Under the pieces are notes generated by a model. It was not told the origin of the DNA. It saw only the letters and a program-made list of their open reading frames with translations, and searched no databases. Shown piece after piece: positions 1,514-25,008 of a stretch of DNA of 28,048 nucleotides. A program made the translations under genes and the position numbers. The stretch is from a virus. Every line of letters starts with the position of its first letter. The stretch's first letter is position 1. The stretch is taken from IMG/VR virus record IMGVR_UViG_3300032132_000760, positions 1-28,048 of that record; one strand, 5' to 3'.

Positions 1514-2173
1514 CTAGGCGGCAACCACGCGTTTAATCGTCTGGCCGCGAAGGATGTTGCCGTTCCGGCCCCGGTATCCTTCATCTCTCAATCGTCTTCC
1601 GATGGCGCGGTAGCCAAGCCCCTCAGAGCGAAGAGCTTTGGCCCGGCGAATGGCGTTCTGCTCCTCTTCGCTCTCAACGAGCTTTCCGGCCTTGTGGCGG
1701 TATCCGAATGGCGCTTGGCCGCTGTATCGCCGGCCGCTCTTCTTCAATATCTCGAGGGCCCCAGCAGTTTTCTCGCCGACGAGACATTTGTAGTGTTCCG
1801 CAATGAGTGCCTGCACGCCGACGGTGATAAGTCCACTTGAAGTCTTGATTTCGATGAGGCCGGCGCCGACTGCATGAATCTCAATCCCTCGCCGAGCCCA
1901 CTCACGAAGCCAGTGGAGTGTGCCGGCCGTATCACGGCCGAGCCTGTCGATGTGGAATACAACTAGCGATTTGGAGCCAGAGGACTTCAGAGCCGCATCA
2001 ATTCGTTCGAATCGTGCAGAGTCTCCGCCGCTCACCCCGTCGTCCTCGACGACGGGCCCGGGTGCCCAGCCCTGCTTGGCGATGTAGTCGCCGATTGCGG
2101 CGCGTTGCTGTGTAAGGCTTACGGTGTTCTCTGTGGATTCAGCCGACCTGCGGATATAAACGGTGGTTTTCAT
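1514..2173 (-). CDS. Serine recombinase (resolvase/invertase family), small
   Basis: 219-aa site-specific DNA recombinase. Residues 1-130 are the resolvase catalytic domain: YIRRS at 6-10 gives Arg8 and nucleophile Ser10, and HIDRLGRD at 74-81 gives the Asp76/Arg77/Arg80 set typical of the family. Residues 140-219 (SGQAPFGYR, GYRAIGRRLRDEG, a terminal TIKRVV) form the recombinase-linker plus helix-turn-helix DNA-binding part seen in short phage and plasmid serine recombinases, without the long zinc/coiled-coil region of large serine integrases. All key residues are intact. Start ATG at 2173 has GGAGGAG six bases upstream and a sigma70-like promoter at 2227-2200. It lies directly behind a tyrosine integrase. 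It could resolve multimers, invert a segment, or provide a second integration route; which one is not shown by the sequence. Confidence 0.92.
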   Translation of the reverse strand: MKTTVYIRRSAESTENTVSLTQQRAAIGDYIAKQGWAPGPVVEDDGVSGGDSARFERIDAALKSSGSKSLVVFHIDRLGRDTAGTLHWLREWARRGIEIHAVGAGLIEIKTSSGLITVGVQALIAEHYKCLVGEKTAGALEILKKSGRRYSGQAPFGYRHKAGKLVESEEEQNAIRRAKALRSEGLGYRAIGRRLRDEGYRGRNGNILRGQTIKRVVAA

Positions 2174-2283: not shown

Positions 2284-3402
2284 TCAGTGGTTTGCAATGG
2301 CTCTTTTTTCCGAAATCCGGTGCCCAAAGCCCCCCGGGAGAGGTACAAGCCCTTCTCTGTAGTGGCGGGCGTAAAGTTGAAAAGTTGTCTTGATGTCAGA
2401 ATGACCCATCCAGTGTTGTAATTTCTTTGGCGGTATCTCGTTCCTGAATGCATGAATAGTGGCAAACGTCCGCCGCAGAATCTGCGGCGACACGTGCGGA
2501 AGATTCGCGGCAAGAGTGACGCGGCGAATCGGCTTGTCTATCCCGTCGGGGTGATAAGGAAATATACGGGAGCGGGCATTCTTGTTGGGGCAAGCCAGGT
2601 ACCATTCTCTTAGCGCCAACAAAAAATCAGGAAAGAGGGGAAGCTCCCGTCGGCCCGAGTATGTCTTTGGCGTAATGAATCCAGCTTTCTGGTCCCAGTT
2701 TTTTCTGACCCGAAGCACTGGGCTTTTTTTGTTGAGTTCGCTTTTGACATCGCCCCATGTGAGCGCAAGCGCTTCATTACGGCGGAGCCCCTGCACGCAG
2801 TAGCAGATGAGCAATGCTCGGCTCGCAACTGTTGGGGGGAAAATTTCAAGACACGTTTCAATAAATAAATCCGCCTGAGTCTCTTCGAGTGCGTCTATAT
2901 TTTCTTTCTCATCCAAGGACACCGTATGGTCCCGCGTCACAGCTGGAATCTTAATTGCAATCGCTGGGTTATCGCTTAGCAAATTATCGTCCACGGCCGA
3001 CTCTAAGATGCTACTGATTTGGCTTTTGATATTTTTGGTTGTCTTGAAGGCCAAGCCTTTTTCTTTTCGTAAATTTTCCAAAAACGATTTTATCATTCGT
3101 TTGCCGAGAGCCTGAATTTTGATGTCGCCTAGTGCGGGGAGGATATGTTTTTCTAAGTTCGTTCGGTGAGCCCGCAGGGTGGAGGGTTTCATTCCACTTT
3201 TCTTGAAGAGTCGCTCAGCATATTCACCAAAGGTAACGCCGGACGGCTCCACAAAATCGCCGCGATATTTTTTGGACTGTGCATCGGCCTCGTAAGCCTC
3301 GGCCTCGGCTTTTGTGGGGAAAGTTTTCCAGATTTGCTTCCCGCCAGGCGTACGAACCATGCAAGTCCAGAGTTTGCTGCCTTTTCGCTTAAATATCGCC
3401 AT
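2284..3402 (-). CDS. int: Tyrosine-recombinase phage integrase
   Basis: 372-aa integrase that would insert and excise the phage genome at an att site. Residues 1-50 form an N-terminal arm-binding-like region (AIFKRKGSKLWTCMV, GGKQIWKTF), 56-150 the SAM-like core-binding domain (TFGEYAERLF, HILPALGDIKI), and 165-350 the catalytic domain. Catalytic residues: Arg207 in GLRRNEALALTWGD, Lys246 in PKTYSGRR, Arg310 in QILRRTFAT, His334 in WMGHSDIKTT and nucleophile Tyr344 in FQLYARHY. The usual HxLRHT motif reads QILRRT, so the box-II His is Gln308. Length is normal for the family. ATG at 3402 has GGGAGA upstream and the gene has its own promoter at 3522-3495. An attP is most likely near its 3' end (2174-2283) or 5' gap, but no core is identifiable. 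Confidence 0.95.
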   Translation of the reverse strand: MAIFKRKGSKLWTCMVRTPGGKQIWKTFPTKAEAEAYEADAQSKKYRGDFVEPSGVTFGEYAERLFKKSGMKPSTLRAHRTNLEKHILPALGDIKIQALGKRMIKSFLENLRKEKGLAFKTTKNIKSQISSILESAVDDNLLSDNPAIAIKIPAVTRDHTVSLDEKENIDALEETQADLFIETCLEIFPPTVASRALLICYCVQGLRRNEALALTWGDVKSELNKKSPVLRVRKNWDQKAGFITPKTYSGRRELPLFPDFLLALREWYLACPNKNARSRIFPYHPDGIDKPIRRVTLAANLPHVSPQILRRTFATIHAFRNEIPPKKLQHWMGHSDIKTTFQLYARHYREGLVPLPGGFGHRISEKRAIANH

Positions 3403-3558: not shown

Positions 3559-3624
3559 TTGACAACTTTATTCACCTTTTATACAACATTTATGTTAGTT
3601 TTTCACTTGCCTTATAGGTAAAGT
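3559..3624 (+). promoter_or_regulatory. Repressor promoter region with candidate operators
   Basis: A perfect -35 TTGACA (3559-3564) is followed by TATACA at 3580-3585 (15-base spacer) or TACAAC at 3582 (17-base spacer). Two dyads lie downstream: AACAT-TT-ATGTT (3585-3596), overlapping the -10/start region, and an imperfect ACTT...AAGT dyad at 3605-3624. They are plausible autoregulatory sites for the repressor whose ATG is at 3659. The rest of the 3403-3658 gap is AT-rich with no ORF. Confidence 0.5.
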
Positions 3625-3658: not shown

Positions 3659-4747
3659 ATGAGCCCTAAAGACGAAAAACCAGAGACTGCCGGTGAGAAG
3701 GCTTTTAGGACAGCCCGGTCAAATATGGAAGGGGGCTGGATTCAGAGAAGTTATGACAAAGATGATTTGAGGGATTATCTCCAAGAAGAAAAATACGCCA
3801 ATGATAAAGAACTTGTCCGCGAAGGTTTGGGCGATAGGATGCGCCGGGTACGCGATGACTCTAATTTGACGGGCGTGCAGATGAGCGAACGGATGGGTTG
3901 CGATGGTTCCCAAATTTCAAAATGGGAAACCGGGACACAAGTCCCGAGTTGGCGAACTCTGGTGAAGTGGACGCGTGCCACGCGGCCCGAGCTCCTCTCG
4001 TATTTATTTCACGGCTCCGCTTGGATAGAAGAGACTGCCGGGAGTTTGGGGCCAGATTCCGAAGCACGCCACGTCGGGGTTGTTCATCTTCGCTCCAATG
4101 TCGCAGATGAATTAAGTCGCAAGCTATTCTCTGCTTTTATAGAGATACTTGACTCGTATCAAACTGTGTCAGGCAGAGCTCTCAAGAGTGGAACTCGAAC
4201 ACAATCCAACCTTAATCGTCTGCTCGAAGAGCACGGCGATACTATCCGATGGCAAGTAGACCATCCTCGGCGGAACGCGGGCCAATGGCTTAATGGGCTA
4301 CTGTTTTCGATGGCCCTCGACACGGATTCAGTGTTCCCGGTTTCCAATAAGGAAGACATCATAGTTGTCGATATGGCGGACAGGGATATTCGACCCGACT
4401 GTTTGTACGCGTTCCTCCCCGCATTGATAGGCGTGATACAACCGCGCATATTTGCTGTGGGCTCCGTTTATGAGTCCCTTCATATGGCGCTTGAAAGTCC
4501 GCCGAAAGATTCCGATAAATGGGAAAAAGAAACGTGGGATGATAGCCCGTGGCATATCGGCGGCAAGGATTTTCCTACACTGAGTCACACCCCGCGCCAT
4601 GTCGCAGTGTATGGAGTCGGGGCGGGCGCTCCCATCATGAGCCCTGATATGCACCGCCCGATGTTTGGCGGGACGCAACAGCAAATTCAAAACTGCCTCC
4701 TCGGAAGAGTAATCTACCGTGGCGGGCCACCGGCGATGAAGCCATAG
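3659..4747 (+). CDS. XRE-family repressor with long C-terminal region
   Basis: 362-aa putative lysogeny regulator. Residues 56-107 are a Cro/cI-type helix-turn-helix (LGDRMRRVRDDSNLTG, MSERMGCDGSQISKWETGT, PSWRTLVKW). A 55-residue charged extension precedes it. The C-terminal region (about 215-357) contains EDIIVVDMADRDIRPDCLYAF and ends LLGRVIYRGG, which resemble strands of the S24/LexA-like repressor domain, but no convincing Ser-Lys catalytic pair is visible, so self-cleavage is doubtful. The position between the divergent integrase promoter and the exported-protein genes, with possible operators upstream, fits a prophage repressor. ATG at 3659 has AAGGA six bases upstream. The next gene starts only 12 bases downstream, so the exported-protein genes are probably co-expressed in the lysogen. 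DNA binding is well supported; the S24 relationship is inference. Confidence 0.8.
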   Translation: MSPKDEKPETAGEKAFRTARSNMEGGWIQRSYDKDDLRDYLQEEKYANDKELVREGLGDRMRRVRDDSNLTGVQMSERMGCDGSQISKWETGTQVPSWRTLVKWTRATRPELLSYLFHGSAWIEETAGSLGPDSEARHVGVVHLRSNVADELSRKLFSAFIEILDSYQTVSGRALKSGTRTQSNLNRLLEEHGDTIRWQVDHPRRNAGQWLNGLLFSMALDTDSVFPVSNKEDIIVVDMADRDIRPDCLYAFLPALIGVIQPRIFAVGSVYESLHMALESPPKDSDKWEKETWDDSPWHIGGKDFPTLSHTPRHVAVYGVGAGAPIMSPDMHRPMFGGTQQQIQNCLLGRVIYRGGPPAMKP

Positions 4748-4758
4748 GGAGAGAAAAA

Positions 4759-4983
4759 ATGAAAACCGTCTTTGTCTTCATGCTTTTTCTTTCAGTCGTA
4801 GTTTCAGGGTGTGCTGTCGGAGATGTTGTTTATATGAAAAATAAAACAACTGGAAAGACCGTAAAATGTGGAGGACATCTGACTTTTGGGAATATCCCTG
4901 CGGGGAATGAACTCAACCTCCAGAAACAACGATATTGTATGGATGACTTCCGAAGACAGGGATATGTAAGGACTGAAAAATAA
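4759..4983 (+). CDS. Small Cys-containing lipoprotein
   Basis: 74-aa lipoprotein. Residues 1-17 form a short hydrophobic signal ending in the lipobox VSGC, with Cys18 the lipidated residue; the following Ala (not Asp) suggests sorting to the outer membrane. The mature part is about 57 residues, with Cys37 (TVKCGG) and Cys60 (RYCMDD) able to form one disulphide, and ends DFRRQGYVR. The pattern K-N-x-x-T-G-x-x-V-x-C-G ... C-x-x-D-x-x-x-Q-G-Y resembles small proteobacterial lipoproteins of unknown function that I recall from other genomes (memory, not a search). A GGGAGA lies upstream of the ATG. It follows the repressor by 12 bases and abuts the next exported protein, so it is likely expressed in lysogens; a surface role such as superinfection exclusion is inference. 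Confidence 0.8.
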   Translation: MKTVFVFMLFLSVVVSGCAVGDVVYMKNKTTGKTVKCGGHLTFGNIPAGNELNLQKQRYCMDDFRRQGYVRTEK

Positions 4984-5466
4984 ATGAAAACGACCTTAAT
5001 CCTTTTCCTGGCCCTTCTCATCCCGGGGACGGCTATGAGCGCAGAGCTTTATTACTGCGCGGAGACTCAAGGCTCGGGATTCAGTATCACAAAATCGGGC
5101 AAGTACTCTCCCGCCAAATTTCGGGGGCGTAAATTCAACCTCCTTCTTAATAAGAAGCGCAAGAATATTCTGGTGACGTGGCCTTATGTTTTCGGAGCGC
5201 CGGCGCCTATCAAATCGGGCGATGGGCTCACCGAGCTTTATGCGTGCAGAGCGGCGATAGCGTACAAAGTAAAACTGTTTGACTGCCACGGTGCCGCAAC
5301 AACGAACTTCGCCAGCCTAGCTCTCAATCCCTCAAACGGCCGTTTCACCCGCAGTATGATTTTTGGCAATCTCGTGAGCCCGAGCTCTAAAGGCAAATGG
5401 GCGCGGGATGCAGAGGACGCCTACGTCAGCCACGGCCAGTGCTCGAAGGTTTCGGGGAAGAAGTAA
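4984..5466 (+). CDS. Secreted protein with signal peptide and four cysteines
   Basis: 160-aa exported protein of unknown function. Residues 2-20 are a classical signal peptide (KTTLILFLALLIPGTAMSA) with a signal peptidase I site after AMSA. The mature 140-residue protein has cysteines at 25, 88, 101 and 153, enough for two disulphides, and is basic and beta-rich (ELYYCAETQGSGFSI, RKNILVTWPYV). Its ATG directly follows the lipoprotein's TAA with no gap, so the two are translated together. Probably periplasmic. The pairing with a lipoprotein and a membrane protein behind a repressor suggests a lysogenic-conversion role at the envelope, but nothing in the sequence proves it. Confidence 0.75.
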   Translation: MKTTLILFLALLIPGTAMSAELYYCAETQGSGFSITKSGKYSPAKFRGRKFNLLLNKKRKNILVTWPYVFGAPAPIKSGDGLTELYACRAAIAYKVKLFDCHGAATTNFASLALNPSNGRFTRSMIFGNLVSPSSKGKWARDAEDAYVSHGQCSKVSGKK

Positions 5467-5485
5467 CGCCAGGAGGGGAAGTCAG

Positions 5486-5728
5486 ATGGAGATGCAAGCA
5501 TTTCTGAATATGGTCATCGAGCCCTGGACGCAGGGGGCTTTCTCATGGGGGCCTCATTTCTTTGTTCTTAATGGGTGTATGTGTATTTCTGTGTACTTTT
5601 TTTGCGGTCCTGATGACCCCCTTCATTACGGCATGATTTTTGGAGTTATTTTTTATTTCTTCCCACTGGAGTTCGCCTATTGGTTAGCCTACTGGCTCCC
5701 TAAAATCGTCAAATTCCTCTGGCCTTGA
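5486..5728 (+). CDS. Small two-helix membrane protein
   Basis: 80-aa hydrophobic protein. Two transmembrane segments are evident, about residues 24-40 (HFFVLNGCMCISVYFFC) and 47-70, rich in Phe/Tyr/Trp, separated by a short GPDDPL turn. The ATG at 5486 has AGGAGG nine bases upstream; the longer frame back to 5408 overlaps the previous gene and reads as an out-of-frame shadow. It is the last gene of the repressor-exported protein operon and faces the excisionase-like gene. Its unusually aromatic helices and position fit an inner-membrane partner of the two exported proteins. A holin is an alternative, but its place next to the repressor makes that less likely. Confidence 0.65.
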   Translation: MEMQAFLNMVIEPWTQGAFSWGPHFFVLNGCMCISVYFFCGPDDPLHYGMIFGVIFYFFPLEFAYWLAYWLPKIVKFLWP

Positions 5729-5753: not shown

Positions 5754-5945
5754 TTAACTGGGCGTGCTCTGTTTTTCCAGCCACTCGCGGAGCTCATCCT
5801 CGTTGAAGCGATATCCCACCGCTAGCTTGTAATTGGGGATTTCGTTACGCTTACAGAGCTCATAAACCGTCTTTTTTGAGCAACCAAGCCACCCCGCCAC
5901 ATCCACAGCAGTGAGCAAGCTCTTTATTTCATTATGTTTACGCAT
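5754..5945 (-). CDS. Excisionase-like MerR-type helix-turn-helix protein
   Basis: 63-aa DNA-binding protein of the HTH_17/excisionase type: residues 10-57 read LLTAVDVAGWLGCSKKTVYE, then a basic strand (IPNYKLAVGYRF), then the NEDELREWLEKQ helix typical of these proteins. They bind bent DNA as excision factors or small regulators. It is leftward, convergent with the accessory operon and divergent from the ribbon-helix-helix gene, with a palindrome in the shared upstream region. No strong ribosome site precedes the ATG at 5945, so it may be weakly translated or leaderless. Whether it works with the integrase or the serine recombinase is unknown. Confidence 0.8.
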   Translation of the reverse strand: MRKHNEIKSLLTAVDVAGWLGCSKKTVYELCKRNEIPNYKLAVGYRFNEDELREWLEKQSTPS

Positions 5946-5977: not shown

Positions 5978-6011
5978 CTTGCAGGACAGTGAAGATATAC
6001 TGTAGTGCAAG
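5978..6011. promoter_or_regulatory. 34-bp palindromic operator between excisionase-like and RHH genes
   Basis: Inverted repeat with half-site CTTGCA-nn-ACAGT: left half 5978-5990, right half 5999-6011, 8-base centre. Eleven of 13 arm positions pair, and the two mismatches sit between the blocks. TATACT, a possible rightward -10, lies at the centre. The right half recurs at 2256-2268 (12/13) and weakly at 2190-2202 (9/13). The rest of the 5946-6087 gap is AT-rich with no ORF. Confidence 0.7.
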
Positions 6012-7758: not shown

Positions 7759-8067
7759 GTGCAGGCTCCCAAGCGCCTCAAGGTCTTCTACCGCCATGTT
7801 CCTGTGTTGTATCTCCCCCGTTCGCGGATGGACGGGAACGATGGGATTTGGGACCAGACCCGCATAACGATTGCCGCAGAACTTCGGGGGCGAGAGCTTG
7901 CGGATACCTTTCTCCACGAAGTACTCCATGCTATCCGGGACACGTTTGGGCATGAGCGAGCGAAGGACGAGGACGCAGTTCAATTTCATGCTACGGCAAT
8001 CACCACATTTTGGAGCGACAACCCCAGCGCGTTGCGCTGGTGGGCAAAATTAATATCACGTGACTAA
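7759..8067 (+). CDS. Small HExxH putative metalloprotein
   Basis: 102-aa protein starting at GTG. Residues 53-57 read HEVLH within LADTFLHEVLHAIRDTFG, the zinc-binding HExxH motif of zincins such as the SprT and ImmA/IrrE families; His65, Glu71 or Asp72 (GHERAKDED) could supply the third ligand. Residues 8-20 form beta strands (KVFYRHVPVLYLP) and 29-45 a strand-turn (GIWDQTRITIAAELRGR), so the fold is a minimal metallopeptidase. It overlaps the large terminase by GTGACTAA and so is co-translated with it. Small HExxH proteins next to the large terminase recur in related phages (general recollection). Substrate unknown; it could process a capsid or host protein, or simply bind metal. Confidence 0.75.
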   Translation: MQAPKRLKVFYRHVPVLYLPRSRMDGNDGIWDQTRITIAAELRGRELADTFLHEVLHAIRDTFGHERAKDEDAVQFHATAITTFWSDNPSALRWWAKLISRD

Positions 8068-9412
8068 TCTAACGCTTCCTTTTAACTACCAGCCCCGCGA
8101 CTATCAGCGCCCTTTCTGGACGGCTATGGCGCAGGGGGCAAAGCGAGCCATGCTCGTTTGGCATCGTCGGAGCGGCAAAGACAAAACCGTCCTTAATTTT
8201 CTTGTCTCTCGCGCCTTCGAGCGAACGGGCACGTACTTTTATTTCCTTCCGACGTATCGTCAGGGAAAGAAAATCATATGGGACGGCTATGACAAGTCGG
8301 GCTTTAAGTTCTTGGACCATGTCCCTCATGATATCCGCGTTCCTGGCGGAACCAACGAAACTGAAATGCAAGTCGCCATATACAATCGCCTCGGCGAAGT
8401 CTCCATCATCCAGTTTGTTGCTTCCGATAGCATCGACAGCCTAGTCGGCACGAATCCCGTGGGCGTGGTGTTCAGCGAATTCAGTCTAATGAAGCGCAAG
8501 GCTTGGGACTTGATGCGTCCAGTGCTCAGAGAGAACGAAGGCTGGGCTGTGATGATTATGACGCCCCGAGGCAAGAACCACGCGTTCAAGATGTGGGAGA
8601 GGGTGCAAGTCAGTAAGAATTGGTTCACTTCTCTCCTCACCGTACACGACACGGCGCTCCCCAACGGGGAGCCAGTTGTCTCAGAGGACATGATTCAAGA
8701 AGACCGAGAAGAAGGCATGGCCGAGGAGGACGTGCAGTCCGAGTATTTTTGCTCGTGGGAAGGTTCAGTCGTTGGCGCTTATTACACGTCTGCTTTTGGA
8801 ATCCTCGACAAGCGCGATGCAATCAAGGATGTGGCCTGGGATACGGATAAGCCGGTTCACACGGCGTGGGACATTGGACACGACACCACTTCAATCTTCT
8901 TCTTCCAATTAGATGGAAACCAACCTCGCTGGATTGATTATTTTGAATCACATGATGAAGGGCTAGAGTTTTACGCAAAGATGTTGCGGGACAAGCCATA
9001 TGTGTATGGCACGCACCTTGGGCCTTGGGATATTCGCCATAGAGAATTTACAAGTTCAGCCTCTAGGATAAGCCGTGCCGCATCGCTCGGTATTCACTTC
9101 GTTGCAGTTCGCAAGCTTCCGATTGACGAAGGCATCAACGCTGTACGTTCGTTGCTGGTGAAGTCCGTATTTGATTCGATTGAATGCGCTCGCGGGATTG
9201 ATTGCCTCAGAAATTACCGGCGTACCTTTAATGAAGACTTGCAAGTTTTTGGCAAGAGCCCCGTCCACGATTGGGCCAGTCATGGGGCGGACTCCTTCCG
9301 CACTGCGGCAGTCGGCTTGGCGGACGGACAAGTCACTGAAGAAATGGGAACGGAACGGCAAACAACGGCTGATTGCAATTTTAATGTTTACGACTATGCA
9401 GAGGTTGGATAA
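8060..9412 (+). CDS. terL: Terminase large subunit
   Basis: 450-aa packaging motor: ATPase plus nuclease. Residues 31-42 (MLVWHRRSGKDK) are the Walker A of the Terminase_6 family (HRRSGKDKT). Residues 135-140 (GVVFSE) are the Walker B position, with Ser in place of the usual Asp before the catalytic Glu140. Residues 165-171 (MIMTPRG) are the coupling motif. The C-terminal RNase H-like nuclease has Asp271 (AWDIGHDTTS), Asp324 (GPWDIRH) and Asp404/Asp411 (HDWASHGADSF). Length is typical of short podovirus terminases. Start is GTG at 8060, inside the previous gene; homologues begin with a similar PFNYQPRDYQRPFW. It is followed without a gap by the Pro/Ala-rich gene. Confidence 0.97.
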   Translation: MTNLTLPFNYQPRDYQRPFWTAMAQGAKRAMLVWHRRSGKDKTVLNFLVSRAFERTGTYFYFLPTYRQGKKIIWDGYDKSGFKFLDHVPHDIRVPGGTNETEMQVAIYNRLGEVSIIQFVASDSIDSLVGTNPVGVVFSEFSLMKRKAWDLMRPVLRENEGWAVMIMTPRGKNHAFKMWERVQVSKNWFTSLLTVHDTALPNGEPVVSEDMIQEDREEGMAEEDVQSEYFCSWEGSVVGAYYTSAFGILDKRDAIKDVAWDTDKPVHTAWDIGHDTTSIFFFQLDGNQPRWIDYFESHDEGLEFYAKMLRDKPYVYGTHLGPWDIRHREFTSSASRISRAASLGIHFVAVRKLPIDEGINAVRSLLVKSVFDSIECARGIDCLRNYRRTFNEDLQVFGKSPVHDWASHGADSFRTAAVGLADGQVTEEMGTERQTTADCNFNVYDYAEVG

Positions 9413-10126
9413 ATGTCTCAGTTTTCGCAGTATTTGAGCCCGCGGCCTTCCGGCAACTTTGGTTCGCAGATGCAACGCTCGTTCGCAGACTTGGAGCGCC
9501 AAGCGATGGGGCGCCTTGGCAGAACGGCTACCTCATCACGCCTAAATCAGGCCGGCAATCTGGCTATGGCCATGCTCGGTAGCGACGCTGTAGCTCCTTA
9601 TAAAGCTTTAATGGAAAAAGTTGTTGGCCACCTCGAATCAGGAAGAGCCAGCAATGTGCTTCAAGCTTTGGAAGTCGTGAACCCCGCCTCCTTGCGGAAT
9701 GTGTATCCGCGTATGTCGGGCAAAACTCTCATCGGCACAACGCTGGACAAGCCGCCGGAGCCCGCACCAGTACCCCCCGCGTCGCCCACGCCGGCCGCGC
9801 CGAAGCCGGAACCTGTGCCATCACCAGCACCCGCCGCCGCTGTAGAACCCAAAACTCCTCCGGCTGTTGCGTCGCCGCCAGCGGCAACAACTCCCAAATT
9901 GCCGGCTTTACCCGGCCTCGTGGGCGGCCCGGGGGGCGTCACTTCACCCGCTCCAACAAGAGCACCGACCCTCGTTCCTGGTAGCCCTGTAGGAACTGCG
10001 GAATCTAAGGCGGCGGTGAAAGCCAAGCGAAGAGTTGTGGGGGGCGCGTACCGTTCGCCCGCAAATCTCACTGGAATTTTGGGAAGTCTCATAGCGGGCA
10101 AAAAGAAGCTCGGGAGTGCCGCATAG
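9413..10126 (+). CDS. Pro/Ala-rich linker protein before portal
   Basis: 237-aa protein of unknown function. Residues 1-105 are helical (SQMQRSFADLERQAMGRLG, ALEVVNPASL). Residues 112-195 are a low-complexity Pro/Ala tract, probably an extended flexible linker. Residues 196-237 are basic (AVKAKRRVVGGAY, GSLIAGKKKLGS). Its ATG follows the terminase TAA directly, and it ends directly before the portal ATG. The layout (helical head, long disordered linker, basic tail) suggests a protein that tethers DNA or a packaging component to the portal, but this is inference. BPP-1-like and T7-like modules often carry a poorly conserved gene here. Confidence 0.75.
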   Translation: MSQFSQYLSPRPSGNFGSQMQRSFADLERQAMGRLGRTATSSRLNQAGNLAMAMLGSDAVAPYKALMEKVVGHLESGRASNVLQALEVVNPASLRNVYPRMSGKTLIGTTLDKPPEPAPVPPASPTPAAPKPEPVPSPAPAAAVEPKTPPAVASPPAATTPKLPALPGLVGGPGGVTSPAPTRAPTLVPGSPVGTAESKAAVKAKRRVVGGAYRSPANLTGILGSLIAGKKKLGSAA

Positions 10127-11827
10127 ATGGCAGAGCGCGTTGAAATTATCAAACGCAACTATGGCCGCTTAAAATCACAGCGCGCCAATTGGGAAGAAAT
10201 CTGGCAAGAGATTGCCGACTACATTATCCCGCAAAAAAATCAGATTCAAACCCGCGCCTCCGGTGGTGAGAAGCGAACAGAAAAGCAGTTCGATTCCACC
10301 GCACAGGACGCAAACGACAAACTCGCGGCCGCGATTCATGGAGCTTTATCCGGCCCAACGAACACATGGTTCAACTTGCGGACGGAAGTCCCAGAGCTCC
10401 TCGACGACCCAGAGGTGAACTACTGGGTGTCGGGGGCGACAGATAAAATCTTTACGGCACTTCAGCAGTCTAATTTTGATGGCGAGATTGAAGAGGTGTA
10501 TTCGGACGTTTCAGCGTTTGGAACAGGAGCTCTAGGGATTGAAGAACACCTGAGCCCCGGGGCCGCTGGCTTTGGCGGGCTTCGATTTGAATCCCTGCAA
10601 ATAGGCACCTATTGCATTGACGAGGGTGCAGACGGTTTAGTCAACACCGTGATGCGGACAGTGACGATGAGCCGCGCCGCGTGGGCGGAAAAACTACCTG
10701 ACGGCAAGTTCTCCTCCGAGAGCAAAGAAAAATTAAAAGAGAACCCCCATGAAAAGGTGACGTACCTTCATGTGGTTCAGCCCCGGATGAATGTTCCGAA
10801 ACAAACCTCTGCCGGCACACGCGCAAAAAAGATGCCCATAGAGTCCCTCTACGTCGAAACTGAAAACGAATGGAAGATTCTCCACGAATCAGGCTTTGCG
10901 GAGCTCCCGTTCGCCGTTGTTCGGTGGCGCAAAGACAGCGGAGCCGGCGAAAATTTTGGGCGAGGCAGGGGAGAAGTCGCTCTTCCTGACATTAGAACTC
11001 TCAACCGGGCAGTCGAAATGAGACTGAAGGCGTGGGCGAAGGCGATAGACCCACCTATTTGGATGCGCGACAGGGGTGTGATTGGGCGCGTAAGACTTCG
11101 TCCTGGGAGCATCAATACAGTAAGGGATGGCGAAGTGTTCGGCGCCATGCCGATGGGCGCGCAGTTCGACGTGGCGAACTTTCATGAAGAGCAATTAAGA
11201 ACACAAATCCGAGGCATCTTTTATAACGACCAATTACAACTACCGGATAAGTCCATCATCACCGCAACGGAAGCCGATAGACGCATTGAGTTGATGCAAC
11301 GCCTCCTCGGGCCTGCACTGTCGAGATTAGATTTGGAGTTGCTCGCGGTTGTCATTAACCGTGTCTTCCAAATCATGCTTCGCGCTGAAGTGTTAGGGCC
11401 TCCTCCCGATACCTTGCTTGAAGCCGCAGAAACCGGCGGGGGAAATCTTGCTATCGAATACTCTGGCCCACTTGCTCGAGCACAGAGAGGTGCCGATTTA
11501 GTGGGGCAAGACAGATTCCTTGCCAGCATTCTTCCTTTAAGAGACATGAATCCAGAAGTAATGGACTTAGTCAATCTCGACGAATATGTGCGCTCTGCGG
11601 GTGAATCCGCTCTTATTAATAAACGCATTCTTCGCACGAGCAACGAAGTCCGACAAATCCGCGAACAGCGCGCCGCAGAGGCGGCAAGACAACAGCAGAT
11701 TCAGGAGAACGCAATCACCGCTCAAGCCGCCGGCAGAGCGGCCCCCGCAATTCAAGCGATTCAAGAAGGCGGCGGTATTCCCGATGACATCATCGGGGAA
11801 GGGGAATTTGAGGAGGTAGAAGAATAG
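10127..11827 (+). CDS. Portal / head-tail connector protein
   Basis: 566-aa portal of the podovirus head-to-tail connector family (T7 gp8 type). It forms the ring at the capsid vertex through which DNA is packaged and to which the tail attaches. Diagnostic stretches: residues 5-36 (VEIIKRNYGRLKSQRANWEE, IWQEIADYIIP), about 60-85 (DANDKLAAAIHGALSGPTNT, WFNLR) and about 130 (SAFGTGALGIEEH). The C-terminus (about 500-566) is a Gln/Ala-rich helix and an acidic tail (EGEFEEVEE). Length fits the family (about 500-560). The start follows the previous TAG directly; GGGAG lies about 10 bases upstream. It is followed at once by the Bbp19-like gene. Confidence 0.95.
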   Translation: MAERVEIIKRNYGRLKSQRANWEEIWQEIADYIIPQKNQIQTRASGGEKRTEKQFDSTAQDANDKLAAAIHGALSGPTNTWFNLRTEVPELLDDPEVNYWVSGATDKIFTALQQSNFDGEIEEVYSDVSAFGTGALGIEEHLSPGAAGFGGLRFESLQIGTYCIDEGADGLVNTVMRTVTMSRAAWAEKLPDGKFSSESKEKLKENPHEKVTYLHVVQPRMNVPKQTSAGTRAKKMPIESLYVETENEWKILHESGFAELPFAVVRWRKDSGAGENFGRGRGEVALPDIRTLNRAVEMRLKAWAKAIDPPIWMRDRGVIGRVRLRPGSINTVRDGEVFGAMPMGAQFDVANFHEEQLRTQIRGIFYNDQLQLPDKSIITATEADRRIELMQRLLGPALSRLDLELLAVVINRVFQIMLRAEVLGPPPDTLLEAAETGGGNLAIEYSGPLARAQRGADLVGQDRFLASILPLRDMNPEVMDLVNLDEYVRSAGESALINKRILRTSNEVRQIREQRAAEAARQQQIQENAITAQAAGRAAPAIQAIQEGGGIPDDIIGEGEFEEVEE

Positions 11828-12106
11828 GTGGCGGACTGGCGTGTCGAGCTCCACGAAGAGGACGAAGGCGATGAAGATGAAGCGGCGCGAATTCTACGTG
11901 AAAAAGAAACCCTTGGCGCTTATCTTTCCGTTTTCGAAACGGAAGCAGGGCAGAAGGTGCTAGCCGATTTGCGCGAATGTTATCACGATGTGGAATCATT
12001 TTCCGAAAATCCATACCAAACGGCATTTAAAGAAGGCCAGAGGCACGTGTATCTGGCACTTATCGACACGCTCGCCCGTGCTGAACAGGAGATAAGAAGT
12101 GGCTGA
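11828..12106 (+). CDS. Bbp19-like small phage protein
   Basis: 92-aa protein resembling Bbp19 of Bordetella phage BPP-1 and relatives. The core at residues 31-83 (AYLSVFETEAGQKVLADLRE, then ENPYQTAFKEGQRHVYLALI) matches the family pattern F-x-T-x-x-G-x-x-V-L-x-D-L and Y-x-T-A-F-x-E-G-x-R. An acidic N-terminus precedes it. Start is GTG directly after the portal TAG. Its end overlaps the scaffold start by eight bases (GTGGCTGA). It sits between portal and scaffold as in BPP-1. Its role is not established in detail; it probably assists capsid assembly. Confidence 0.8.
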   Translation: MADWRVELHEEDEGDEDEAARILREKETLGAYLSVFETEAGQKVLADLRECYHDVESFSENPYQTAFKEGQRHVYLALIDTLARAEQEIRSG

Positions 12107-12920
12107 CGAAGAGAACCAGAATGGACAAGGCGATGAAGTTGAGGCCCCCAGCGATGGAGAATCTCAAGAGGAAGCAAAACCGGAAATCAAACTAGAAGAC
12201 ATCATCCCCGAAGAGTATCGCCAAGAAAAAATGTTCACGGCGGTGAAGGATGTCCCATCACTCGTTAAGAATTATGTAGAAGCGCAGAAGTACATCGGCG
12301 GCGCCGTCAAGATGCCGACGGAAGAATCCACTCAAGACGATTGGGATAAGTTCTACGGCAAGCTCGGACGCCCCGAGAGCTCCGAGGGCTATCACGTCCA
12401 GAGTCCTGAAACGCTTCAGGAGATTGGTTTCGATGACGGGGCGCGCCAGCAATTCCTCCGTGGCTTTCACAGTGCCGGACTAAATAATTCACAAGTTCAA
12501 AACGTCCTGAACGTAATCGGACAATACGTAACGGATTCCTATAACTCGGCGTCCGAAGGGAATGCCGAGGGCATGAATAAATTAATGGAAGACTGGGGGG
12601 AAAATTCAGAGCTCAACACTGCTCTCGCCCAACGGGCCGTGAGTCACCTCGGTGGTGACGATTTGAAGGACCGCATGGATAAGAGTGGGCTGGGCAATGA
12701 CCCTCTCATGGTTGGCGTGTTTGCAAAAGTGGGCGCGATGCTCGCAGAAGACGGCGTGATTGTAGGCAGCGTCGAAGGAGTCAAGACAACTGACTCCGCA
12801 AAAGAAGAAATCACACGCATCTTAAATGATGCCACCGACGCGTACCACAAGTCGGACAAGCCCGGTCACGAAGACAGGGTGAAATACATGAGCAAGCTCT
12901 ATCAGCTTGCTTACAACTAA
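12099..12920 (+). CDS. Capsid assembly scaffolding protein
   Basis: 273-aa scaffold-type protein. It is strongly acidic and helical, with an acidic disordered head (residues 1-30), a middle region (EYRQEKMFTAVKDVPSLVKN, YVEAQKYIGGAVKMP; DWDKFYGKLGRPES) and a helical C-terminal third (about 225-273) that would bind capsid subunits. VKMP and YxxLGRPxxxEGY are typical of podovirus scaffold or capsid-assembly proteins (T7 gp9/Bbp18 type). Start is GTG at 12099 with AGGAGA upstream, overlapping the previous gene. It immediately precedes the capsid gene. It should be present in procapsids and leave before DNA packaging is complete. Confidence 0.9.
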   Translation: MADEENQNGQGDEVEAPSDGESQEEAKPEIKLEDIIPEEYRQEKMFTAVKDVPSLVKNYVEAQKYIGGAVKMPTEESTQDDWDKFYGKLGRPESSEGYHVQSPETLQEIGFDDGARQQFLRGFHSAGLNNSQVQNVLNVIGQYVTDSYNSASEGNAEGMNKLMEDWGENSELNTALAQRAVSHLGGDDLKDRMDKSGLGNDPLMVGVFAKVGAMLAEDGVIVGSVEGVKTTDSAKEEITRILNDATDAYHKSDKPGHEDRVKYMSKLYQLAYN

Positions 12921-12993
12921 ACTTTTTGGGACCGCACGCGGAAAACCCCGAAGGTACTAAAAGAAGAGACAAATAACCTAAAGGAGTTTCAGT

Positions 12994-13851
12994 GTGTCTG
13001 AATTAATCACAGCAGCCTTTGTTCAGCAATACAAAGGCAACATCCATATCGCGTATCAGCAAGCGGCTTCGAAGCTGCGCGAGGCTGTCAATATTGAGCC
13101 TCAGCAGGGCGAGTTCGCTTACGTTGATATATTGAGTGCCACGACTGCACAGCCTTATTCAGGACGTGCGTCAGATACCACCTACGTTGACAGCATCCAC
13201 ACCCGTCGCCAGCGAGCGCTTCAGGACTATGTCTGGAGTGACTTGATTGACATGAGCGACAGAGTCCGCACCTTGATTCAGCCAGACAGCGCGTACGTAA
13301 CGAACTGCGCGATGGCATTTGGGCGTCGGACGGACGAGACAATTTTCACGGCGTTCAACGCAAGCGTAAAAGAAGGCAAGACCGGGTCAACCACCACGGC
13401 TTTTGATACTTCCAACTATCAAATTGCCCACGGCTCGGCCGGGCTTACACTGGCTAAAATTATTAGCGCCTCAAAAACGCTCAACCTAGGGGACGTCCCG
13501 ATGGACGATAGGTACTTTGCTATCGACCCGGCCGGCCTCGAAGACTTGCTTGCCGATTCCACCATCACAAGCGCGGACTACAATACTTTGCGAATGCTCC
13601 AGAGCGGCACCTTCCAAGGCGTGTTCATGGGATTCAAATGGATTGTGAGTACGTTAGTGCCGAAGTCTGGAAGCACGTACAGCGGGTTTGCGTGGCACAA
13701 GCGCTCGATGAGCTTGGGGATAGGCAAAGACTTGAACGTGAAAGTCACTGAGCTCCCCACGAAAAATTTCAATACGCAAGTCTGGGCGAGCATGATGCTC
13801 GGAGCAGTTCGTGTTGAGGACGCTGGAGTCGTAGAGGTTCAGTATCAATAG
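12994..13851 (+). CDS. Major capsid protein
   Basis: 285-aa major capsid protein of the short podovirus/BPP-1 (Bbp17) type. Diagnostic stretches: residues 1-27 (SELITAAFVQQYKGNIHIAY, QQAASKL), 66-92 (DSIHTRRQRALQDYVWSDLI, DMSDRVR) and the C-terminal beta domain (FNTQVWASMMLGAVRVEDAG). Length suits this compact class. Start is GTG at 12994 with AAAGGAG eight bases upstream, a strong site for a high-copy protein. The 73-base gap before it is the largest in the structural operon, but I see no promoter in it. Followed by the cement gene. Confidence 0.93.
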   Translation: MSELITAAFVQQYKGNIHIAYQQAASKLREAVNIEPQQGEFAYVDILSATTAQPYSGRASDTTYVDSIHTRRQRALQDYVWSDLIDMSDRVRTLIQPDSAYVTNCAMAFGRRTDETIFTAFNASVKEGKTGSTTTAFDTSNYQIAHGSAGLTLAKIISASKTLNLGDVPMDDRYFAIDPAGLEDLLADSTITSADYNTLRMLQSGTFQGVFMGFKWIVSTLVPKSGSTYSGFAWHKRSMSLGIGKDLNVKVTELPTKNFNTQVWASMMLGAVRVEDAGVVEVQYQ

Positions 13852-13876
13852 ACACATCAAATAAGGAGTAGAACAC

Positions 13877-14359
13877 ATGGCCTTTACTGGCTCACCTGTC
13901 AACGCCACCATTTATCAGAATCAAGTGGATGGCGATGGCACAAAAAATGTTACGGCCGACGTAACCGGCAAAATGCGTATTGCACGTTTTTCATATACGC
14001 ACGCTGCGGGGGCGGGGGTTGGAGAAATCAACTTAGTGAAGTTGCCTCCCGGCAAGACTCGCGTGCTTACCGACTTGTGTCGTCTCGTGACGACTCAGTT
14101 CGCGAGCAACGCGGATTTACATATTGGACACCGCGCCTACACCAATTTAGCGGGCACCGCGGTAGCTGAAGACGACGATGTTTTTGGTGCCAACATCGAT
14201 GCGGGTGGCGGTGCAATAGACGCCGCGTTTACTTTGCCCGCTGGCGGAATCAAAGAATTCGACAGCCGTGGCGAAGTAGGCATTTATGCGATGGTCGACA
14301 CCGGCAACATCGAAGATGACGACACAATAAACGGTTATATCGTTTACACGAAAGACTAG
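13877..14359 (+). CDS. Capsid cement / decoration protein (Bbp16-like)
   Basis: 160-aa beta-rich protein downstream of the capsid gene. Gly/Thr/Ala-rich strands (KMRIARFSYTHAAGAGVGEI; GKTRVLTDLCRLVTTQFASN; DLHIGHRAYTNLAG; EVGIYAMVDTGN) and a final IVYTKD match the general look of the BPP-1 Bbp16 cement family, which decorates and stabilises the capsid. Strong ribosome site AAGGAG eight bases before the ATG at 13877. Followed by a UUCG hairpin and the tail tube A gene, so it closes the head genes. The family assignment rests on gene order and composition, not a search. Confidence 0.8.
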   Translation: MAFTGSPVNATIYQNQVDGDGTKNVTADVTGKMRIARFSYTHAAGAGVGEINLVKLPPGKTRVLTDLCRLVTTQFASNADLHIGHRAYTNLAGTAVAEDDDVFGANIDAGGGAIDAAFTLPAGGIKEFDSRGEVGIYAMVDTGNIEDDDTINGYIVYTKD

Positions 14360-14366
14360 GTGTCAT

Positions 14367-14388
14367 CGGGGGGCCTTCGGGCCCCTCG
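14367..14388 (+). other. UUCG-capped hairpin between head and tail genes
   Basis: A 9-bp stem (CGGGGGGCC with GGCCCCTCG, one G-U pair) closed by a TTCG tetraloop, 8 bases after the cement gene stop and just before the AAGGAG of the tail tube A gene. There is no T-run. Such exceptionally stable hairpins often act as 3' stabilisers or processing/attenuation points that set a high head to low tail expression ratio. Confidence 0.7.
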
Positions 14389-14400
14389 TAAGGAGTTTGA

Positions 14401-14967
14401 ATGGCTGACAGTGAAACCGCCATCTGCAACATGGCGCTTATGCGCCTGGGCCAAAAGCCAATCCTATCGCTGACGGACGGTTCGAATCAGGCACTGACTT
14501 GCGCCACGTTTTATGAGGCGACGCGTGACAGCGTGCTTGCCGCGTTTCCGTGGGGGTTCGCGATGGCCAGAACGTCACTTGCGGCGGACGGAGACGCACC
14601 GTCGTTTGAGTTTGACGTAGCGTACAGTCTGCCGGCCGATGTCATAAACGTCTCGGAGGTAGACTTCGACCCTGACGATTACCCGTGGCGTGTCGAGGGA
14701 GGAAAGATTTTAACGGATGCCCCCGCGCCCATATACATCACGTACACTTCGCGGGTAACCGACACCACGAAATTCGACCCGCTTTTTGTGGATGCTCTCG
14801 CAGAATATCTAGCGGCAGACATCGCCTTCCCCATTACAAGGAAAGACACGCTTCGGCGAACGCACCTTGCGGTGGCCGAAGCAAAACTCGCTATTGCTCG
14901 CTCGAGAGATAGCCAGCAGGGAAGTCAGCAAGAATTCGAAGCAAACGATTTAATTGAGGTTCGTTGA
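14401..14967 (+). CDS. Tail tubular protein A (T7 gp11-like)
   Basis: 188-aa tail tube/adaptor protein joining portal to nozzle. Residues 5-25 (ETAICNMALMRLGQKPILSL) and 36-60 (FYEATRDSVLAAFPWGFAMA, RTSLA) are hallmarks of the gp11 family, as are 72-100 (DVAYSLPADVINVSE) and 126-145 (DALAEYLAADIAFPITRKDT). The 188-aa length matches T7 gp11 (about 196). AAGGAG lies seven bases before the ATG. It is followed without a gap by tail tubular B, as in T7-like phages. Confidence 0.93.
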   Translation: MADSETAICNMALMRLGQKPILSLTDGSNQALTCATFYEATRDSVLAAFPWGFAMARTSLAADGDAPSFEFDVAYSLPADVINVSEVDFDPDDYPWRVEGGKILTDAPAPIYITYTSRVTDTTKFDPLFVDALAEYLAADIAFPITRKDTLRRTHLAVAEAKLAIARSRDSQQGSQQEFEANDLIEVR

Positions 14968-17070
14968 TTGCCCAGAGCACCCGTTTTACAAAATTCATTC
15001 TTGAGTGGGGAAATATCACCCCGTTTATTTGCGCGCTCGGACTTCGAAAAGTTCCACTCCGGTGTAGCAGAATTATTGAACTACATCATCTTGCCCCACG
15101 GAGGAGTCCGCCGGCGCCCCGGACTGAAATTCGTGGCAGAGGTAAAAACCTCCTCGGCCAAAACGCGTCTTCTCCCTTTTTCATTTAGCGACGAGCAAAG
15201 TTATATCCTAGAGCTCGGAAATGGGTACATCCGCTTTTATAAAAATTCCGCAAAGATAGTTTCTGGCGATACGGACGCGAGCATCGCAAACGGAACCTTC
15301 GCCTCTGACATCGCGAGTTGGACGGCGCGCAATGCCGGCACGGGCGCCGTTACACATGAGAGCACGAACGATACTTTGAAACTTACGGGCGCTGGTTCCG
15401 GCAATGAGGCGCGTGCGTATCAGTCTGTGACGGTGGGCTCAAGTTATCGAAGCAATGAGCACGTCATCAAGTTTCGCGTTTATTCAGGCACTGCGAAATT
15501 TCGCATCGGTACGAGCGCCGGCGGGGAGCAATTATTTACAACGGCTGAATTTGAAAAAGGCTACCATTGCGTTGCCTTCACGCCCGGGGCTTCTCCGGTG
15601 TATGTCGAATTTGAAGAGAACGAGAGCGCTTCGTGCGAAGTCGACGACATCTCTCTTGTTGATAACGCGCAGATTGAAATCGATAGCCCCTACGCTACGG
15701 CGAACCTGTTTCAGCTTCAACGCAGTCAGTCAGCGGACACCATGTGGCTCACACATCGTCTGACGAAGCCCTACAAGCTGACGCGGAGCGGACATACTTC
15801 TTGGTCGCTTACCGAGTACACGCCAACAGCCGACCCATTCACATCGACGAATAACTATCCGGGCGCGGTTGGATTCTGGAAAAACCGGCTGTGGTTTGGC
15901 GGCACCGAGGCAAACCCAAACACCGTTTACTCCACAAAAGCCGGAAACGTCGAAGACATGACAACGGGCACCGATGCCGACCACGGCATCACCATCGCGC
16001 TCTTTGATGGCGAAGTGAACAAAATTGTTTGGCTTCGTTCTGCCGGCAACCTTCTTGTAGGAACAGTCGGGGGAGAGCACGAGCTCTCCGGGGATTCGGA
16101 TGGCGTGGTCACCCCGGGCTCCATCTCGAGCGCCGACGCGACAGAGCATGGATGCGCGCTTGTGCGGCCAGAAAAAATAGGCTCGGCGGTTGTGTTCCTG
16201 CAACGCGCAGGACGAAAGTACCGTCAAATTGTTTTTGATTTAAACACAGAAAAACTTGTGGCTCCTGATTTAACAATTTTAAGCGAGCACATCACCACGG
16301 GCGGAATCACAGAATTTTCTTACGCTCAGGAGCCTGATTCGATTCTTTGGGGAGTCCGTTCCGACGGAACTCTTATATCAATGACATTTATGCGCGACCA
16401 AAATGTTGTGGGATTCGGTAGGCACACCACGGCGGGTTCTTTTGAGACTGTCGCAACAATTCCGCACCAAGACGGTGACAGGGACCAGACTTGGGTAATC
16501 GTCTCGCGCACGGTGGGGGGTGCCACAAAAAGGTACGTAGAATATTTTGATGACGGTGACGGATTTTACGGAGTTCTGGGTACGGATAGCGCGCTCACTC
16601 TTGTCTCCGGCTCCGCGCAATCGAGCGTTTCGGGGTTAACTCATCTGGAAGGGCTGTCTGTTGATATTGTAGGAGACGGGGCGGTCTATCCAAGGGCGAC
16701 AGTTTCTTCTGGTGCAGTCGCGCTCTCTCCAACTGCTAAGGACATAGAGGTAGGCCTCCCATATACATCCACCTTAAAGACACTACGCCCTGCCACTCAG
16801 GACGGCGTCATTGAATCCAAAAAAGTATCTCGCTCCAGAATCATCGTTCGCCTCTATCAAACTATCGGCCTGACGGTAAACGACCAGCTTGTTCCGTTCC
16901 GCTCCTCAAATGATGAGATGGACCAGCCCCCGGACTTATTCACCGGCGAGCTCGAGATAATCGAATTGAACTGGGACGAGGACGGGGGTGTGGTGACAGT
17001 GACGCAAACACAGCCTCTTCCTTCCACAATCCTGTCCGTGTCTGGAGACATCGAGTGGGCGGATACCTAG
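14968..17070 (+). CDS. Tail tubular protein B (T7 gp12-like nozzle) with inserted CBM-like domain
   Basis: 700-aa nozzle protein. Residues 1-100 are the gp12 signature (FLSGEISPRLFARSDFEKFH; ILPHGGVRRRPGLKFVAEVK; YILELGNGYIRFY) and 240 to the end resume typical gp12-like beta propeller (NNYPGAVGFWKNRLWFGGTE; GGEHELSGDSD). Residues about 103-233 are an inserted jelly-roll resembling carbohydrate-binding modules of the CBM4_9 type (NGTFASDIASWT; AYQSVTVGSSY; CEVDDISLVDN). It begins with TTG: GAGG lies eight bases upstream and no ATG is in place, and homologues begin MPRAP in the same way. The end overlaps the next gene by TAGTG. The insert may bind capsular or lipopolysaccharide sugars. Confidence 0.92.
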   Translation: MPRAPVLQNSFLSGEISPRLFARSDFEKFHSGVAELLNYIILPHGGVRRRPGLKFVAEVKTSSAKTRLLPFSFSDEQSYILELGNGYIRFYKNSAKIVSGDTDASIANGTFASDIASWTARNAGTGAVTHESTNDTLKLTGAGSGNEARAYQSVTVGSSYRSNEHVIKFRVYSGTAKFRIGTSAGGEQLFTTAEFEKGYHCVAFTPGASPVYVEFEENESASCEVDDISLVDNAQIEIDSPYATANLFQLQRSQSADTMWLTHRLTKPYKLTRSGHTSWSLTEYTPTADPFTSTNNYPGAVGFWKNRLWFGGTEANPNTVYSTKAGNVEDMTTGTDADHGITIALFDGEVNKIVWLRSAGNLLVGTVGGEHELSGDSDGVVTPGSISSADATEHGCALVRPEKIGSAVVFLQRAGRKYRQIVFDLNTEKLVAPDLTILSEHITTGGITEFSYAQEPDSILWGVRSDGTLISMTFMRDQNVVGFGRHTTAGSFETVATIPHQDGDRDQTWVIVSRTVGGATKRYVEYFDDGDGFYGVLGTDSALTLVSGSAQSSVSGLTHLEGLSVDIVGDGAVYPRATVSSGAVALSPTAKDIEVGLPYTSTLKTLRPATQDGVIESKKVSRSRIIVRLYQTIGLTVNDQLVPFRSSNDEMDQPPDLFTGELEIIELNWDEDGGVVTVTQTQPLPSTILSVSGDIEWADT

Positions 17071-17474
17071 TGCCTTTTAAATCTTTTCATCGTGCGGAAA
17101 TTTTGGGTGGATTGAATTCTATGCCGGCAAGCATGGTGGCTGAGCTTGAGCGGTCCCTGTCTTTCACTTTAATGCTCGATAAAAAACCTATTGCGGCAGG
17201 GGGCATTATTACGTTGATGCCGGGAGTAGGTTCTGCTTGGGTGTTCGTTTCCCCGGCAGTAAAAGAGAATGTGCATCGCTTCCATAGAACGGTAGTTCGG
17301 AGTCTTCGCTCTTTCTTGCCAAAATTTCGGCGAATTCAGGCGGACGTTCATGATGAATTTACGATGGGGCACCGTTGGATTAAATCGCTTGGTTTCGCGT
17401 TTGAGTCGACGATGCCGCTCGCTGGCCTATCCGGTGAAACGCTGAAGCGATACGTAATTTTGAATAAGGATTGA
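17070..17474 (+). CDS. GNAT-like small virion-associated protein (gp13 position)
   Basis: 134-aa protein. Start GTG at 17070 overlaps the nozzle's stop (TAGTG); an earlier GTG at 17055 is possible but overlaps more. Residues 35-62 (MLDKKPIAAGGIITLMPGVG; WVFVSP), 78-97 (SLRSFLPKFRRIQADVHDEF) and 98-116 (TMGHRWIKSLGFAFESTMP) follow the GNAT acyltransferase pattern, with W-x-x-x-L-G-F-x-x-E at the usual motif-B position. T7 gp13, a virion protein in the same place, also has a GNAT-like fold. Acetyl-CoA binding residues (Q/R-x-x-G-x-G/A) are not evident, so it may be structural. It couples to the next gene through a TGATAATG junction. Confidence 0.7.
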   Translation: MPFKSFHRAEILGGLNSMPASMVAELERSLSFTLMLDKKPIAAGGIITLMPGVGSAWVFVSPAVKENVHRFHRTVVRSLRSFLPKFRRIQADVHDEFTMGHRWIKSLGFAFESTMPLAGLSGETLKRYVILNKD

Positions 17475-17476
17475 TA

Positions 17477-18274: not shown

Positions 18275-18277
18275 TAA

Positions 18278-25006: not shown

Positions 25007-25008
25007 AT

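Follow-up and report, generated by a model that had tools for sequence, protein, structure and literature searches.

The closest described counterparts of the locus analysed here are small phage lipoproteins, some of them carried in multi-gene loci. As described in the relevant part of PMC9586334, Llp contains a Cys11–Cys58 disulphide and blocks FhuA by altering its outer loops, acting from the inner face of the outer membrane. Rtp45, a protein of about 6 kDa, blocks LptDE by altering outer loops as well, according to the portion of PMC12685063 that deals with it. Cor is 78 amino acids (aa) long in N15, with cysteines at positions 17, 28 and 76, and 75 aa long in T1, with cysteines at 17, 25 and 73. 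A three-gene cor cassette, which encodes Cor, a membrane-associated protein and an outer-membrane protein, is reported for T1, HK022, N15, ES18 and phi80 in the pertinent section of PMC13164509. The region after the repressor is a common site for accessory loci, for example rexAB of lambda and also bstA of BTP1, and lom and bor are among the lambda genes expressed in the lysogen (both points from one part of PMC7067206).

We analysed a viral record of 28,048 bases (the ‘window’, meaning the whole stretch of DNA), in which three small genes lie directly behind a gene for a helix-turn-helix (HTH) regulator. Judged from their sequence, the three open reading frames (ORFs) are real genes of no recognised family. 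Our preferred reading, to which we assign a probability of roughly 0.4, is that they belong to the regulator's transcript as accessory (moron) genes and encode a perhaps Llp-like lipoprotein and two further products that are separate cargo. The relevant features of the window are as follows.

1514–2173, minus strand: serine-recombinase/resolvase-type protein (family matches in Pfam and PHROGs)
2284–3402, minus strand: tyrosine integrase (PF00589, 7.9e-14; phrog_1, 7.7e-57), divergent from the regulator
3659–4747, plus strand: HTH (XRE-type) regulator, 362 aa; presumed lysogeny regulator and head of the presumed operon
4759–4983, plus strand: lipoprotein gene, 74 aa; lipobox VSGC; Cys 18, 37 and 60
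4984–5466, plus strand: secreted-protein gene, 160 aa; N-terminal hydrophobic segment, then AMSA; Cys 25, 88, 101 and 153
5486–5728, plus strand: membrane-protein gene, 80 aa; 28% aromatic; start ATG 5486
5754–5945, minus strand: HTH_17/excisionase-type protein (PF12728, 6.7e-14; TIGR01764, 7.8e-11)

In outline, the window lipoprotein resembles Cor, Llp and Rtp45 as a small, lipid-anchored phage lipoprotein with a mature part of about 60 residues, and like Llp and Cor it has two further cysteines. These stand at mature positions 20 and 43, whereas those of Llp lie near both ends (11 and 58, in the same part of PMC9586334) and those of Cor at 12 and 60 (N15) or 9 and 57 (T1). BLASTP against the N15 and T1 Cor proteins gave an E of 3.7 for T1 Cor and did not list N15 Cor, and none of the 30 sequences up to E 10 in a PDB sequence search was named Llp or Rtp45. 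The settings also differ, the window gene lying behind a regulator and the Cor gene by tail genes. By analogy, the window lipoprotein may nonetheless work like Llp, Cor or Rtp45.

The two multi-gene comparisons are likewise partial. Both the cor cassette and the window trio combine a phage lipoprotein gene with two envelope-type companions, but the cassette companions of T1 and N15 (100–101 aa and 225–229 aa) have no hydrophobic segment of at least 1.3 and show no similarity to the window proteins (best E 1.5). Gene order and location in T1 and N15 differ from those of the trio too. With rexAB and bstA the trio shares the position of accessory genes directly behind a regulator, here a presumed lysogeny regulator, on the same strand. 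Unlike those loci, it encodes a predicted lipoprotein, secreted protein and membrane protein that match no family, and its transcription as part of an operon is a prediction.

Gene organisation, coding signal and predicted targeting

The three genes are tightly packed behind the regulator. An 11-nt gap separates the regulator stop from the lipoprotein gene, the secreted-protein start follows the lipoprotein stop at 0 nt, and 19 nt lie between the secreted-protein stop and the membrane-protein start; the excisionase-type gene (5754–5945) is convergent with the trio and bounds the presumed operon. From this spacing we infer that the regulator and the three genes form one operon. The regulator carries an HTH domain at residues 57–103 (Pfam PF13560, 1.3e-9) and matches PHROG transcriptional repressor families (best 1.2e-7), while its long C-terminal part has no credible Pfam domain match; it is likely a lysogeny repressor. 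Searches with the regulator gave no match in viral contigs, nor in phages at E 0.01.

A first-pass annotation of the DNA had placed the trio in one operon behind the prophage repressor. An HTH gene does precede the trio on the same strand and the spacing suits an operon, but the repressor role is itself predicted from domain content, and a simple scan flagged a plus-strand promoter-like site inside the regulator gene (4424–4452, 9 of 12 matches) and none ahead of the regulator start at 3659. Promoter-like sites in the region exceed those in shuffles (10 versus 3.8), and terminator-like sites are at chance level (5 versus 4.3), including a stem inside the membrane-protein gene (5534–5555). The motif AACATTTATGTT at 3585–3596 was rejected as an operator, being not above chance. 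Downstream of the trio, an inverted repeat at 5978–6011 (13-nt arms, 85% complementary, 8 nt apart) is a candidate operator; it overlaps a minus-strand promoter-like site (6020–5992, TTGACA-17-TATCTT) ahead of the excisionase-type gene.

Codon usage was scored in bits per codon with a model trained on nine virion genes, and all six frames were compared. The gene's own frame is the top of the six for the lipoprotein (0.01), the secreted protein (0.16) and the membrane protein (0.08), and the remaining frames score −0.12 or below. The absolute score of the lipoprotein gene is low, no better than those of two antisense comparison ORFs (−0.01 and −0.02), but both of these have a better frame on the opposite strand (0.16 and 0.13), and the lipoprotein gene has none. 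For the membrane protein, ATG 5486, which is preceded by a Shine-Dalgarno sequence (AGGAGG, 5471–5476), is the preferred start, because the 78-nt extension to ATG 5408 scores as non-coding (−0.26 per codon versus +0.08). Lipoprotein-like ORFs number one in the window against a mean of 0.067 per shuffled window (60 mononucleotide shuffles; ORFs of 50–300 aa, first Met only). At 0.35, third-position G+C in the lipoprotein gene is lower than in the adjoining genes (0.53, 0.64 and 0.54), in keeping with a separate origin of this gene.

Targeting and topology were read from the sequences and from hydrophobicity scores. The lipobox VSGC occupies residues 15–18 of the lipoprotein and leaves a mature part of 57 aa with an alanine after the lipid-bearing cysteine. 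Under the Lol rule, alanine at this position leads to outer-membrane sorting in a Gram-negative host, and the lipoprotein is predicted to reside in the outer membrane if the host is Gram-negative. The secreted protein has a single N-terminal hydrophobic segment (score 1.8), a predicted signal peptide ending AMSA, and four cysteines in its mature part. In the 80-aa membrane protein, the two hydrophobic segments have Kyte-Doolittle scores of 1.37, which is marginal, and 1.65, which is clear; two helices are likely, the first being marginal. The ORF sequence and the shuffle control bear out the earlier description of a lipoprotein with lipobox VSGC and two more cysteines, and the 0-nt junction and the best own-frame codon score do so for a secreted four-cysteine protein abutting it. 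The description of an aromatic, two-helix membrane protein holds for its aromatic content and second segment and is less secure for the first.

Phage context and host

Podovirus virion genes fill the right two thirds of the window, with matches to the PF12236 head–tail connector, a T7-type tail-fibre N-terminus, and tail tubular and internal virion proteins. An HTVC010P-like virion module (8060–27732) is joined to an integrase-carrying lysogeny region. The contig ends just past the tail fibre (25009–27732), and the final frame, from 27965, is cut by the contig end; in HTVC010P the endolysin sits after the tail-fibre region. The window proteins scanned, which represent part of the ORFs, include no recognisable replication or lysis gene product, and the window contains no tRNA and no Rfam family.

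The left part of the window has further features. Two recombinases adjoin on the minus strand, the serine-recombinase/resolvase-type protein (1514–2173) and the tyrosine integrase (2284–3402). The C-terminal half of a minus-strand ORF (1165–1584) repeats a VEPVKxxVAPTYEDK-like unit about two and a half times; this ORF has no family match in Pfam or PHROGs. A Sel1-repeat protein (487–915; PF08238, 4.8e-12; phrog_8741, 1e-10) lies near the left contig end.

The capsid protein shares 43.7% identity with its counterpart in Pelagibacter phage HTVC010P and matches 135 phage records, mostly of Vibrio (89) and Pelagibacter (23) phages. The terminase matches 432 phage records, all at less than 60% identity, and its relatives include Pelagibacter, Vibrio, Alteromonas and Stenotrophomonas phages and also Microbacterium phages. 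A Gram-negative host is likely from these relationships, but not certain, because some of the terminase relatives infect Microbacterium. A terminase search of genome contigs returned one locus (L036, JAMOPD010000422.1), a terminase relative in a metagenome-assembled genome titled Thermococcaceae archaeon; it is possibly a mis-binned phage contig.

Relatives of the three proteins and a lone lipoprotein homologue

Pfam, PHROGs, NCBIfam and PADLOC offer no credible match to any member of the trio (0 PADLOC families at E 1), and at E 1 no lytic enzyme, holin or spanin family was found for them in Pfam, PHROGs or NCBIfam. The statement of the first-pass annotation that no gene is recognised thus stands for the trio, which appears undescribed, a judgement that rests on the family libraries and a general literature search. 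Several weak hits were discounted. With the lipoprotein as query, two Pfam rows (DUF4265, 16.8 bits with a cut-off of 27; CI-B14_5a, 12.1 with a cut-off of 25) scored below threshold, as did two lipoprotein families of NCBIfam (14.3 and 12.8 bits with cut-offs of 50 and 33). The PDB sequence rows for the lipoprotein and the secreted protein (1, at E 0.58, and 30, best 0.26) are chance-like, and the membrane protein has none.

Broader searches gave the same picture. The lipoprotein and the secreted protein have no tblastn match in phage or plasmid records at E 1. Peptide-pattern scans of 2.9 million viral contigs with each of the three proteins, which detect close relatives, returned no relative, nor did one scan of bacterial genome contigs with exact peptide patterns of the first two proteins joined. 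Among 115 genomes of the phylum of the L036 genome, five gave weak hits to the secreted protein at E 0.01–0.05; four of the five contain internal stops, and we regard them as chance. A motif pattern for the secreted protein, suggested by a candidate family, returned a single locus, likewise by chance, in another frame of a terminase-like ORF.

Structure prediction assigned no fold. The model of the secreted protein (pLDDT 31) was set aside. The two-sequence model of the lipoprotein has a mean pLDDT of 65 and found no convincing Foldseek match in the PDB (best E 2.6, 50 of 56 rows) or in BFVD (best E 0.54, best 50 of 410), and VIA-align gave a best Z of 2.8. Llp and Rtp45 are absent among the structural matches listed for this pLDDT-65 model.

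One homologue of the lipoprotein was found. A degenerate pattern for its C-terminal motif, suggested by a candidate family that served as a lead, was used on viral contigs and matched two near-identical IMG/VR contigs, L038 and L039 (fragments of 18,965 and 8,513 bases). The gene on the longer contig is:

L038, 2833–3033, minus strand: lone lipoprotein, 66 aa; inverted relative to its neighbours

On both contigs the gene lies just before genes read as terminase genes. The window and L038 lipoproteins align with 28% identity over 65 columns (E 1e-10 in two-sequence BLASTP; 1.5e-9 with other settings). Since the motif had selected the hit, the alignment was retested without it: the mature part ahead of the motif lies 6.3 standard deviations above shuffled sequences (1 of 5000 reaches its score), and the whole pre-motif part 7.4 standard deviations above (0 of 5000). 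The L038/L039 and window proteins have in common the lipobox, a spacing of 19 from the lipid-bearing to the second cysteine, and the C-terminal C..D(F/Y)..QGYVR. By these alignments, a small lipoprotein family spans two phages. In contrast to the window gene, the L038/L039 gene is single and on the strand opposite to its neighbours, and the two contigs contain no match to the secreted or the membrane protein. A homologue that lacks the partners speaks against an obligate trio, as far as one phage on fragment contigs can.

Further searches from this homologue added no member. A second version of the motif pattern matched inside a long ORF of another kind (L040), a chance hit. As a query, the L038 lipoprotein has no family model in Pfam, PHROGs or NCBIfam, and its weak PHROG match (phrog_1754, E 0.0036) covers the signal peptide. 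It also drew two phage and five plasmid records, none better than E 1. Of the plasmid places, four were rescored (0.002–0.014 per record) and read, two of them in six-frame detail on one strand; we take these four for chance because they fall within or straddle longer frames that encode different proteins.

The first-pass annotation had proposed a search for the trio as a conserved cassette in other prophages and had named a failure of the genes to co-occur elsewhere as a refuting outcome. Within the reach of our searches, which is short, that outcome was obtained: we found no second copy in viral contigs, in genome contigs, in the flanks of relatives or in whole records. Around 34 loci of terminase relatives, flanks of up to 8 kb were searched with 14 window proteins (tblastn, E 1); the three genes had no match there, and the integrase was likewise unmatched. 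The whole-record set (n = 37) comprised the records of the 34 relatives, the L036 genome and the L038 and L039 records, many of them short fragments. The secreted protein was found in 0 of the 37 (and 0 of 15 in an earlier set), nulls that lack a positive control, and the membrane protein in 0 of the 37. A lipoprotein profile matched two, namely L038 and L039, which built or duplicate the profile, and the regulator matched two in its HTH stretch only. Absence of the trio from these relatives says little, because none showed the integrase in its fetched flanks or the regulator beyond its HTH, and no relative was found with the same slot that would show variable content.

Readings of the locus

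The reading that we prefer casts the phage as a temperate HTVC010P-like podovirus and the trio as accessory (moron) genes in its lysogeny region. Transcribed with the HTH regulator, the three products would be produced even as the prophage stays silent. The lipoprotein would go to the inner face of the outer membrane and, by analogy with Llp, Cor and Rtp45, might there bind an outer-membrane protein used by phages and so bar superinfection; we regard this exclusion mechanism as a rather doubtful conjecture. Its two companions, the secreted protein of disulfide type and the small membrane protein, would be separate envelope-modifying cargo, not obligate subunits. The moron reading is supported by the tight same-strand packing behind the regulator together with the coding signal, by the adjoining integrase, HTH regulator and excisionase-type genes, by the known use of such a slot for accessory loci (PMC7067206), by the low third-position G+C of the lipoprotein gene, and by the L038/L039 lipoprotein, which stands alone and inverted, as morons do. 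Its Llp-like element draws on the resemblance to N15 and T1 Cor in size and make-up, and is weakened because sequence similarity to Cor is lacking, the cysteine spacing is different and no structural match is convincing. The moron reading as a whole is weakened because the plus-strand promoter-like site flagged lies inside the regulator gene, with none ahead of it, and the repressor role is itself a prediction.

The first-pass annotation had instead suggested one multi-part system, and the trio could form a single trans-envelope exclusion system of an outer-membrane lipoprotein, a periplasmic protein and a two-helix inner-membrane protein. The contiguous genes with their 0-nt first junction and the three different predicted compartments suit such a design, and the cor cassette of T1 and N15 demonstrates that multi-gene exclusion loci exist. 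Its companions are dissimilar from the window proteins (E 1.5 or worse), however, the searches turned up no further copy of the trio, and the contigs that carry the lipoprotein homologue show no match to its two partners here. That the trio works as one multi-part system is unproven and disfavoured by the sole comparison available. We consider the three-part version unlikely, and more improbable still the stronger claim that temperate HTVC010P-like podoviruses have an undescribed three-compartment system for superinfection exclusion or envelope defence, expressed from the regulator operon, in which a new lipoprotein family would work with a secreted disulfide protein and a small inner-membrane protein. 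Another reading is lysogenic conversion apart from phage defence, with the secreted and lipid-anchored proteins altering the surface or fitness of the host. The type of slot and the presumed expression are as in the moron reading, lom and bor of lambda are expressed from the prophage (in the part of PMC7067206 cited above) and an orphan four-cysteine secreted protein suits host-facing cargo, but no described conversion protein was matched in Pfam, PHROGs or NCBIfam, and we hold this reading to be possible though on the doubtful side.

Two further alternatives carry less weight. Two hydrophobic segments within 80 aa and a nearby lipoprotein could indicate a displaced lysis cassette (a class II holin-like protein, an outer-membrane spanin lipoprotein and a secreted lytic enzyme), and no lysis gene came to light in the part of the window's ORFs that was scanned. 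A place behind the lysogeny regulator is the wrong one for such genes, given that the endolysin of HTVC010P follows the tail-fibre region and the contig stops just past the tail fibre, and the secreted protein matches no lytic-enzyme family. By sequence, the window lipoprotein lacks the proline richness of spanin lipoproteins, and a long soluble part is likewise missing from the 80-aa protein. We consider the lysis cassette very improbable. Finally, the three could be unrelated orphan genes that share a location only and have no function that matters in the lysogen. The lack of a family for any of them and the single occurrence of the lipoprotein elsewhere are in keeping with this, but the own-frame coding signal and targeting sequences in all three argue against it, and we judge it quite improbable.

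For the present, the trio amounts to orphan cargo at a familiar kind of location. Together with its lone homologue, the window lipoprotein may belong to a small phage family that has no model in the protein-family libraries consulted. If the moron reading is true, the window represents a temperate HTVC010P-like phage with lysogen-expressed surface cargo, which could change the envelope of its host and the host's sensitivity to phages.
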